Part shown: positions 13,512 to 47,779 of the stretch, one piece after another
How the letters are laid out: every line of letters begins with the position of its first letter
Numbering within the stretch: the first letter of the stretch is position 1
Origin: Catenaria anguillulae PL171
Lineage: Eukaryota; Blastocladiomycota; Blastocladiomycetes; Blastocladiales; Catenariaceae
DNA: 64,000 nt
Assembly: GCA_002102555.1 (NCBI GenBank)
Contig: MCFL01000088.1
Location: forward strand, 1-64,000
Direction of reading: 5' to 3'
The notes under the pieces: generated by a model
Seen by the model: the letters and a program-made list of their open reading frames with translations, nothing else
Database searches by the model: none
Told to the model about the DNA's origin: nothing
Made by a program: the position numbers and the translations under genes

Positions 13512-14532
13512 AGGTTTTGAGTGACGACCGACGTGGTGAGTTGGTTCAAGTTTGTTCTGTCGAGGTTTGTTTTGTGCAATTCAAGTTGTGTGTCTCCCTT
13601 CTTTTCATCCGAGATGTTTTGCTGATTATGAAACGTGGAAAAGAGTCCCTTGTCTTGATTCTTCCCTTTGGTGCGGCGCTCACGAGTGAAAAACCCATAA
13701 AAACTGACAGGTACTGCTTGAGTGTCAGTCACTGTGCGATCGCGATATCGGAGAAGGCCGCCTGTCGATCGTGTGGTTCCCACCCCTTCTCGACGTTCCC
13801 CTGCCAGATGCTTGGGACAGTCGGCAATCAAGGTGAACCGAAAGGAAGAGCCAGGATGTAAATACATCATTGCACGGAAATCACACTTCATGGATTACTT
13901 GCGCTCAGCACAGATGAACGCTTTGGCACAGATACTCGAAACAGAACACAAAAACAACTCACAGTCTCTACTCATGCTCCAACCTATGACATGTCTGTAT
14001 CATTAGCGGCATCAAGCGCCCCGCGAGTCAAGGGTTGGGCGGCAAGTGTATGGTGGGTGTAGGATCGCAGTAGCCAGCGTTCCGGCTCGAATGCAGGTAG
14101 TATTCATGAGTTTGCATAAGTGGGTTTTGTATACCATCCATGGTAAGATTGACCGCATGATCGGTGCTGCATGATATGCCTGTCATGGTTCATCTCAAGG
14201 TGAAATCACGAAGTTCTCACGGTTCACCACATAGCTTGTTCTCATGGATCATTCTCACCATTGTTGCAAGGCGGTGTAAATACTTTGTCTTTTGTGACAC
14301 TTTGCCTAGAGGGAGTGTCTTAGCAGGGGAGCCATTCTCGGGCTTCTTCTCGATCAATCGACTTGGCAACGACGCGAGCTCGGCGTGAGACAGTGCTCCC
14401 ACTTGGGCGAACAGGCTAGCAAGTATCAAACATTAATACACATTATCCTGAACATGTAATGTCGTACAACCCAATGCAAATGACCGACGTATAGAACAAG
14501 GTCTCCGGCTCACCTCCCTTGCTTGTTGGAAA
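13512..14532. other. Intergenic region downstream of SLA2
   Basis: About 1 kb of AT-richer sequence between two plus-strand genes, holding the SLA2 3' UTR and the promoter of the next gene. A palindrome-like GATGTAAATACATC lies at 13856-13869. No RNA gene or supported coding region is visible. Confidence 0.45.
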
Positions 14533-36821: not shown

Positions 36822-37510
36822 ATGACTTCCAGCGCCTCGCGCGCAACTCCGTTCTCTATACTGCCCTGTGAGCTGCTGGCCGACACGTTTTCGCTTGCTC
36901 TGCAGCGCTCCGCATTGCAGACACGAGCAAAGCAGTCCCCAAGATTATCGAGCGATCGCCTCACATTCACTGGTCATGGTCTCACCATGTCGTCTTGCAT
37001 TCCGAACTCATTTCCGTCCTAGTCGGCGGGGCACTGGCTGATATCACCGAAGAGTGCCCCAGTTATCCCGACATAATCCAGATCTCTTCTCGCCTCATGA
37101 CCTTTCTTCAGTCAAGATGACTGGAACGTCTCCGACTTAGCGGTGTCCACCAAAAGAGTATCTGTTTGATGAATCGTACATTGACTGGCCATTTTCTGCC
37201 AAAGGCCGTTTCAACGGGACATTTCCTCGAGTCGGGCGGATTGGCAGCATCAGCTCAAGGATTTGTATGAGGTCGACCAAGACGTCGTCATTCGGAATGG
37301 CGCTGGACTCTGTTGCGCATTTTAGCTTGCCATCTGCCTTCGCCTCGCACAGCAATGTCGGCCATTTCAACTCACCATCTCTGATCTTGGCCACATCATC
37401 TCCAACATGACCAGGGTTGCCATCGATTGTGCAAAGTTATTGACTGGGGCTGTTGAGGTCCAGAGCGAAGAAGCTCAGGCTGCTCTCGTTGCTTTATTCA
37501 TTGAGCAGTC
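36822..37510 (+). pseudogene. Decayed F-box-like gene, relative of the gene at 14533
   Basis: From an ATG at 36822 the frame gives FSILPCELLADTFSLALQRS, which parallels FSILATEILVDIISLAHPRS of the intact gene at 14533, and stops at 37022. The next conserved block continues in another frame (HWSWSHHVVLHSELISVLVGG), ending at a TGA near 37118. Further downstream a third frame carries FQLTISDLGHIISNMTRVAI and a Leu/Ala-rich helix up to about 37510. At least two frameshifts and a stop separate the pieces, and no splice sites reconnect them. Confidence 0.6.
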
Positions 37511-45204: not shown

Positions 45205-45934
45205 ATGGGCACGGTATTAAGCTCCCCATGGACCAAATCCAAGGGCCTCAAAGTTCTCATCGTCGGCCTCGACTTTGTCGGCAAAACTGTTCTGCTTCAC
45301 ACGCTGCCGCCAAGTGACCCTGAAGCAGCGCAACAGACTATCGCAACCAAAGGTACTCTCTCAGCGCCGTGCTGACACCAACATTCAAGTCAACCACAAT
45401 GACATAAGCCGATACCCTTGCCCTCATGCACTTCAGGATACAACACCAAGCAGGTGACGCACCACGACAAAAGATTCATGTTCTGGGACTTGAGTGGGTG
45501 CCACGGACTGCGACTGCATTGGCGATTCTGTACGTGTGACACGGTAATACATTGCGCCCACGAAAAACCTGGCCGCTCACCTCAATGCACTCGACCTGCG
45601 GCGTAATCGAGCGTTTTACTGAATAGATTTCGAAAACGCTCACGCTGTCCTCTTTGTAGTCGACCCGACTGATACGGCACGCATTGCCGAAGCGCAGTCC
45701 GAACTGGCTCGCCTGGCGGCCGAGCCGCAACTTGCGAATGCAAGGTTTGCGCTACTGTTGCACAAGTCGGACCTGTCCGTGGACCAGCGAGTCAATCAGG
45801 AAATGTCGGCAAAGTTTGCCGAGTTGATGGGTTTGCGGCCACGATTGGTGGAACACACGTCTTGTAAGACGGAGCAAGGCAAGAGGGCTTTGGGGAGGGT
45901 CTTGGATTGGCTTGCAGATGATTCGATGAGGTGA
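45205..45934 (+). CDS. Divergent Arf-like small GTPase
   Basis: Exons 45205-45352, 45437-45529 and 45627-45934 give 182 residues. Gly2 follows the start Met, as needed for N-myristoylation. The P-loop GLDFVGKT (21-28) is intact. The order W D...LHWRFYFENAHAVLFVVDPTD is typical of Arf/Arl proteins. Two guanine-nucleotide elements are altered. The DxGGQ motif reads DLSGC (67-71), so the position of the catalytic Gln is Cys and one Gly is Ser. NKxD is HKSD. Such changes predict weak or no GTP hydrolysis and altered base recognition. A role as a slowly cycling membrane switch is inference only. Confidence 0.78.
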
Positions 45935-46088: not shown

Positions 46089-47779
46089 CTAGTTGAGGTA
46101 CTTGAGCAAATCCGGCCCGTTGCCCTGAAAAAGAGATGCGAGTGCATTAGCGTTTCGCCATCAACAGCCCAAAAACAGCCGAGTTGCAGTAGACAGCGTA
46201 CCACAGGAACAACCCTTGTCGGGTTGATGTTCACGTGCGACATGTAATAATGTTTCTTGATGTGCTCCATATTACACGTCTCTTTGATGCCCGGCAGCGC
46301 GTAAAACCTGGCCGCCCAGCGCAAAATCTGAGGATAACCGAACTCGATCGTCTTCCAGTTGCACTTGAAATGCCCGTGGTATACAGGATCAAACCGCAAA
46401 ATGGTCGTAAACAACCTCACATCGGCCTCGGTGAGCTCCTTGCCAAACAGCCACGGCCCTTCCTTTGCGTGCGCCTCGAGGTGGTGCTCGACGCGGTCGA
46501 GGGCAGTGAACAGTTGCGTCACTGCGCGGTCGTAGGGTGCTTGCGCAGTGGCAAACCCGGCCTTGTACACGCCGTTGTTGATCGAGTCGTACACCCAGTC
46601 GTTGAGGCCGTCGATTTGCGGGCGAAGGGATTCCGGGTAAAAGGTGACACCCGGGCGCGTGGCAAATGCGTCAAACGTGGTGTTGAGCATCCGGATGATT
46701 TCCGAGGATTCGTTGTTGACTGTTCGATATGTGACAGGAATTGCAATTTGGGGTCAGGACAAGACGCAACAGCATTTGGAAGGAACAATACCCCGGCACG
46801 TACCGATCGTGTGCGTTTTCTTGTCCCACAGCACCGGGACCGTGAATCGGCCTTGATATCCAGGCTCGGCACGCAAGTAGAGCTCCTTCAAATAGTGCGC
46901 ACCGTACAAGTGGTCTCGGGTCGCCCCGGGGCAGTCGTCTTCGTTTTGCGGGAACTCCCAGCCTTCGGGGCCAAGCAAGTAGTGCACAACGGAGACCGAC
47001 AGGCAGTCCTCGAGGCCTTTCAGGGCACGTACGATGAGGACGCGATGGGCCTGTGACAGGAGCAGCGAGGTTGCGTCAGAGACTCGAGCGTTCAAGATAT
47101 GGATCGAATGCGTCTTGGGGACAGAGGGCGGGATGGAAAACGGCATACCCAAGGACACTATACAGCACAATCGGGAGAGTCGGCGTACATTGGATCATTA
47201 GCGGTTGCGGGCAGATCCAAAATGGACAACAGCAGAACGAATCAAATGCAGCGTACCGCCAATGAAACGTAGAGATGATAGCGGTCCTTTTCGGCAACAA
47301 ACTTTGCCTGCGGGTCGCAACTGACATGGTCGCGAAACGAGGACACTTGACGGCGAAACTCGCCGTCCTTGGACGCCCTGTTTCGCGCACCATTCAGTCG
47401 AGCGTCAGCACGGATGCATTACCAGGCATGCATTGTTTCAGATGCGCATTGCACGGGAAGCGAACCATTTGAGCATGTCATCGGGCTTTCCGGGGCTTGC
47501 CGTGGCGGTGGACGTTGCTTGGGTATTGGAGGCGGACATGGTGACCGCGCGTGAGGAAGAGGTCGATGGCGGAATGTGTGCGGCTGTGGTTGAGAACGAG
47601 TGCGGCGGCGGAGGGGAGGCTGCAGCGGACAGGTGTCGAGGCGCGGGTTGGATCACGCGAATGAGCGGGCGGTGGAGGACAGCACGGGCAAGAGCTGGGG
47701 CGCGGACGGGAGTTAAATTCAGCGTGAGCTTGAGGGTGGCAAGCGACATGGCACCGTTTGAGTCAGGGTTCGATGACAT
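46089..47779 (-). CDS. ECM4: Glutathione S-transferase of the glutathionyl-hydroquinone reductase (Xi/Ecm4) type
   Basis: Six exons on the minus strand: 47779-47466, 47377-47257, 47157-47149, 47050-46804, 46719-46214 and 46124-46089, giving 410 residues. The N-terminal 90 residues look like a mitochondrial presequence (LARAVLHRPLIRVIQPAPRH). The thioredoxin-like domain follows: LKWASKDGEFRRQVSSFRD, then YHLYVSLA-CPW-AHRVLIVRALKGL. Cys146 of CPW is the catalytic residue. The helical domain includes SINNGVYKAGFA, LFGKELTEADVRLFTTILRFDPVYHGHFKCN and the end GNG.DLLKYLN. These enzymes reduce glutathionyl-hydroquinones. CPW comes entirely from a 9-base exon flanked by good splice sites. Without that exon the active-site motif is absent. 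Confidence 0.9.

Follow-up and report, generated by a model that had tools for sequence, protein, structure and literature searches.

A nine-nucleotide exon predicted to supply the catalytic Cys-Pro-Trp motif of a glutathionyl-hydroquinone reductase in Catenaria anguillulae

The window analysed here, a 64,000-nucleotide stretch forming part of contig C445 of the aquatic fungus Catenaria anguillulae PL171 (Blastocladiomycota), carries on its minus strand a six-exon gene (47779-46089) for a glutathionyl-hydroquinone reductase (GHR), a Xi-class glutathione S-transferase (GST). Its third exon, at 47157-47149, consists of nine nucleotides that encode nothing other than the catalytic motif Cys-Pro-Trp (CPW). 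The position and reading frame of this segment are confirmed, with its inclusion in the mRNA predicted, and it is very likely that we are looking at one GHR locus present on two allelic contigs, in which the catalytic CPW lies in a constitutive 9-nt microexon of phase 0-0.

The GHR gene and its product

Splicing of the six exons listed in Table 1 yields a reading frame of 1,245 nt (414 residues plus the stop codon). The predicted product contains the PF13409 (GST_N_2) and PF13410 (GST_C_2) domains, both above cut-off, and NCBIfam offered no family for it. Its assignment to the GHR family, made in the earlier note, is upheld by the closest solved structures, which are Xi-class GSTs/GHRs. With a 313-residue query, 3PPU, identified as PcGHR1 of Phanerochaete in passages of PMC5063366, matches residues 6-309 (E 2.3e-108), and the Trametes Xi 1 enzyme 6GC9 matches with E 3.4e-108. 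PcGHR1 and the Trametes Xi 1 and Xi 3 enzymes are members of the same family that align with the Catenaria protein across nearly the whole domain, and ECM4 of S. cerevisiae belongs to this family as well. The tyrosines within GVYKAG, PVYHG, and HYYMSH align with tyrosines of 3PPU, and by eye and spacing they may correspond to the ECM4 triad, given as Y224, Y301, and Y346 in passages of PMC5063366. By its domains and structural matches the locus is a fungal GHR gene, with GHR activity predicted. In a search for related DNA that might share the microexon, a scan of viral contigs with an eight-protein alignment found no relative.

Table 1. Coordinates of the GHR exons and introns in the window
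Feature	Coordinates	Strand	Length (nt)	Description
Exon 1	47466..47779	-	314	N-terminal extension and domain start; first ATG at 47779; also in gene model on window
Intron 1	47378..47465	-	88	GTTCGC...ACAG
Exon 2	47257..47377	-	121	Ends ...YHLYVSLA, phase 0
Intron 2	47158..47256	-	99	GTACGC...ATAG; CTAAT starts 44 nt before intron end
Microexon 3	47149..47157	-	9	TGT CCT TGG, Cys-Pro-Trp, catalytic motif; identical in second allele
Intron 3	47051..47148	-	98	GTATGC...ACAG; CTGAC starts 29 nt before intron end
Exon 4	46804..47050	-	247	Begins AHRVLI
Intron 4	46720..46803	-	84	GTACGT...ACAG
Exon 5	46202..46719	-	518	C-terminal GST domain, presumed tyrosine triad
Intron 5	46125..46201	-	77	GTACGC...TCAG; read through in public model P0001
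Exon 6	46089..46124	-	36	Includes stop codon

The spliced protein reads SLACPWAHR and includes the CPWA motif with its catalytic cysteine, a motif of strict conservation in GHRs according to passages of PMC5063366. All of the 120 matches listed from the first protein search, in which 8000 candidates passed, contain either SLACPWAHR or a close variant that retains CPW. The CPW is retained in each of the 234 homologues listed over two protein searches.

The N-terminal extension encoded by exon 1 is rich in R, A, S, and P, and has in-frame methionines also at residues 11 and 81. Proteins of Allomyces (P0004) and Blastocladiella (P0002) likewise have an N-terminal extension and an internal methionine ahead of the domain. 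Judged by eye, alternative starts could give rise to mitochondrial and cytosolic GHR products. The gene converges on a plus-strand neighbour (45206-45934) whose protein, starting MGTVLSSPW...VLIVGLDFVGKT, looks on inspection like an Arf-like small GTPase.

Reading frame, splice signals and alleles of the 9-nt exon

Exon 2 ends at 47257 with ...LYVSLA and exon 4 starts at 47050 with AHRVLI, as the earlier note had placed them, and its proposal of a 9-nt exon coding for exactly CPW between the two also holds: TGTCCTTGG is located at 47157-47149, with TATAG immediately before it, GTATGC immediately after it, and phase 0 on both sides. At the DNA level this is a microexon as that class is defined (an internal, in-frame exon of no more than 15 nt with canonical flanks), being 9 nt long, bounded by GT-AG introns on both sides, and of phase 0-0. 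The 206-nt gap between exons 2 and 4 contains four AG dinucleotides (giving exon starts at 47157, 47113, 47082, and 47050) and 14 GT dinucleotides, and enumeration of these, holding the ends of exons 2 and 4 constant, leaves only two GT-AG exons that maintain the reading frame. One is 47157-47149, encoding CPW and separated from its neighbours by introns of 99 and 98 nt. The other is a 30-nt segment (47113-47084) that encodes THSIHILNAR without CPW and has introns of 143 and 33 nt, the latter shorter than the minimum of 45 nt set in our gene model. Retention of intron 2 leads to a stop four codons on, and retention of intron 3 to an early stop too. Intron 2 has no AG from 47256 on until the acceptor ahead of 47157.

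The gene model was self-trained on 200 kb of contig C1, where it predicted 51 genes and 109 introns. The C1 GHR allele and its neighbour were then removed and the splice matrices recalculated from 105 introns; the coding table was kept and still includes both genes. Internal exons of 0, 5, and 6 nt that this crude model proposed were taken to be artefacts. Relative to the 105 predicted training introns, the donor scores are at the 37th percentile for intron 2 and the 25th for intron 3, with acceptor scores at the 50th and 79th, respectively, so the splice sites flanking the microexon are in the ordinary range for the predicted introns of this genome. A branch-like CTRAY motif is present in all five GHR introns, starting 26-44 nt before the intron end, and in 33 of the 105 training introns in roughly the last 60 nt. 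Intron 2 also contains a donor-like site, AAT|GTACGC (47188-47183, minus strand), that scores 6.27 versus 4.18 for the donor at 47256. There is no AG upstream of it within the intron, and its use leads to an early stop, such that it could generate a non-productive transcript.

The assembly comprises 41.07 Mb in 457 contigs, and the window is collinear with C1:1048413-1129336 over nine blocks longer than 400 bp with 93.1-97.3% identity. C1 has additional stretches between blocks, of ~3 kb at window position 14023 and ~7 kb at 36989. The two contigs appear to be haplotypes of a single region. When the genome was searched with the protein, matches were confined to this locus and the corresponding place on C1; we considered whether the C1 copy is a paralogue and rejected this, since the region is collinear and no other genomic match is present, and it is taken to be the other allele. 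Between the two alleles, neither the 9-nt exon nor any of the four splice dinucleotides flanking it differs, and none of the 22 codons that do differ (16 synonymously) is within exon 3. Across all five introns there are 8 differences in 446 positions, with 2 of 99 in intron 2 and none of 98 in intron 3; approximately two differences would be expected in intron 3, and by this rough comparison special conservation of that intron was not deemed meaningful. The pattern fits a maintained GHR gene, with a divergence too low to prove selection on the microexon. At position 47446 the C1 allele has T for C, creating a GT 18 nt past the end of exon 1, and the exon 1 donor that the model chooses on that allele lies 18 nt downstream (332 versus 314 nt). 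This T is possibly an allele-specific in-frame donor, to which the 332-nt exon would correspond.

A public protein of the C1 allele, P0001 (glutathione S-transferase, partial), is 99% identical to the window product and reads SLACPWAHR, with CPW included, and the microexon is in this way already implicitly annotated. P0001, for which one member sequence is listed, lacks the part encoded by exon 1 and continues through intron 5 into a different C-terminus; both termini are probably misannotated, and the protein has the look of a model guided by homology, not of a full-length cDNA.

Alternatives to a constitutive CPW exon

The earlier note further proposed that the exon acts as an on/off switch. 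The part concerning the reading frame is correct, in that removal of the exon leaves SLA|AHR with exactly CPW lost; a regulatory role is unsupported, with splice sites of ordinary strength, CPW present in every listed homologue, and P0001 containing it. We regard it as improbable that alternative skipping yields an in-frame, catalytically dead, and perhaps dimer-poisoning GHR under some conditions, and as slightly less probable again that the skipping is stage- or stress-dependent and produces a dead in-frame subunit that tunes quinone-detoxifying activity. Beyond the exact preservation of frame, a regulated switch would be consistent with the 206-nt combined intron, whose length lies between the 5% and 95% points for predicted introns (52 and 229 nt), with the intron 3 donor, which has the weakest score of the five in GHR, and with the precedent of a switch-like microexon in Trichoderma virens Xlr2. 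Against it, coding microexons of plants are mostly included, and retention is commoner than skipping, according to passages of PMC8831610. There are also no skipped forms among the 234 listed proteins; a dedicated search scored over 42 residues around the junction gave 559 candidates of which 454 passed, and none of the best 120 listed is a skipped form, all 120 having CPW. Were such a switch to operate, it would be a case of a GST active site removed under splicing control in an early-diverging fungus.

It is less probable still that the segment is not an exon at all, with 47257-47050 joined constitutively, TGTCCTTGG coincidental, and a GHR without its catalytic motif. This reading has the gene model on its side. 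On the window the model recovers the five larger GHR exons base for base and joins 47257 straight to 47050, omitting the 9-nt exon. This outcome counts against the exon, and the junction is the one that the earlier note had named as refuting it if found in transcripts. The microexon is also omitted on the C1 allele, where the predicted exons are 332, 121, 247, 518, and 36 nt long. Gene models of this type can hardly reward three codons and tend to skip such exons, and standard annotators are said in passages of PMC8831610 to disfavour microexons. Coincidence is in turn very unlikely. The pattern AG-TGYCCNTGG-GT (AGTGYCCNTGGGT) occurs eight times on both strands of the 41.07 Mb assembly, two of which are the GHR alleles themselves, and the same pattern written backwards, used as a control, occurs nine times. 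The six non-GHR occurrences correspond to ~1.5e-5 expected per 206-nt interval on one strand, and one match arose among 400,000 intervals simulated with a first-order Markov model, placing a chance AG-CPW-GT in this gap at the order of 1e-5 or less. The conservation of CPWA, described as strict in GHRs, the CPW of all 234 listed homologues, and the predominance of synonymous codon changes between the alleles (16 of 22) also argue against a GHR that lacks the motif.

Least probable is that CPW comes from a longer exon or from some structure of a non-standard kind (non GT-AG, nested, or stepwise splicing), as might be suggested by the strong donor-like GTACGC at 47188, but there is no AG between 47256 and the acceptor ahead of 47157, the sole other in-frame GT-AG exon of the gap lacks CPW, and read-through from exon 2 stops after four codons.

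For the constitutive microexon, introns 2 (99 nt) and 3 (98 nt) would most likely each be recognised by intron definition and presumably be removed stepwise, since nine nucleotides leave no room for both splicing complexes at the same time. The mature transcript would then carry SLACPWAHR and specify an ordinary active enzyme. The microexon most likely arose when two introns came to flank the motif, rather than as a regulatory device. An origin by duplication of one of the two introns was considered and rejected, as they share only a 7-nt match.

Precedents and significance

The earlier note described an exon of this kind as rare, and that is fair, with the qualification that there is a precedent in plants, where a 9-nt exon of the glycoside hydrolase family GH32 contains an active-site residue. 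According to passages of PMC8831610, plant genes for invertase and AP2 contain microexons of 9 nt, misannotation is frequent, and the flanking introns are removed one after another. The mini-exon of plant acid invertases and fructan exohydrolases encodes D-P-N and, like the GHR exon, is 9 nt long and specifies a tripeptide with an active-site residue. In chicory 1-FEH IIb this 9-bp mini-exon bears one of three active-site residues, and an allele from which it is missing is still in frame and was judged non-functional, as described in passages of PMC4477480; loss of the GH32 mini-exon is thus an in-frame change for which inactivation is expected. It is often overlooked by annotation (passages of PMC8831610). 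The two cases differ in that the GH32 mini-exon is of phase 1 and the GHR microexon of phase 0-0, and in that the former is seen by RNA-seq in many flowering-plant genes (both from passages of PMC8831610), whereas the latter is known from DNA alone; the enzyme and the kingdom are also different. Among fungi, Xlr2 of Trichoderma virens resembles the Catenaria GHR in having a microexon, but Xlr2 is a transcription factor in which glucose-dependent inclusion is reported to decide whether a DNA-binding domain is made, whereas GHR is an enzyme.

Among the matches listed from open-licence literature on GHR/Xi GSTs, on fungal and catalytic microexons, and on Blastocladiomycota, we found no microexon in a GHR gene. 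The Catenaria case is distinctive as a CPW catalytic motif within a phase 0-0 exon of an early-diverging fungus, and is not a new mechanism. It indicates that the whole catalytic motif of an ordinary enzyme can occupy an exon so short that a gene finder misses it, and a genome-trained model that omits the exon would report a GHR minus its catalytic cysteine. Such proteins should not be called catalytically dead from annotation alone. The locus also provides a small fungal test case, parallel to plant invertase, for the splicing of a 9-nt exon that has a short intron on either side.
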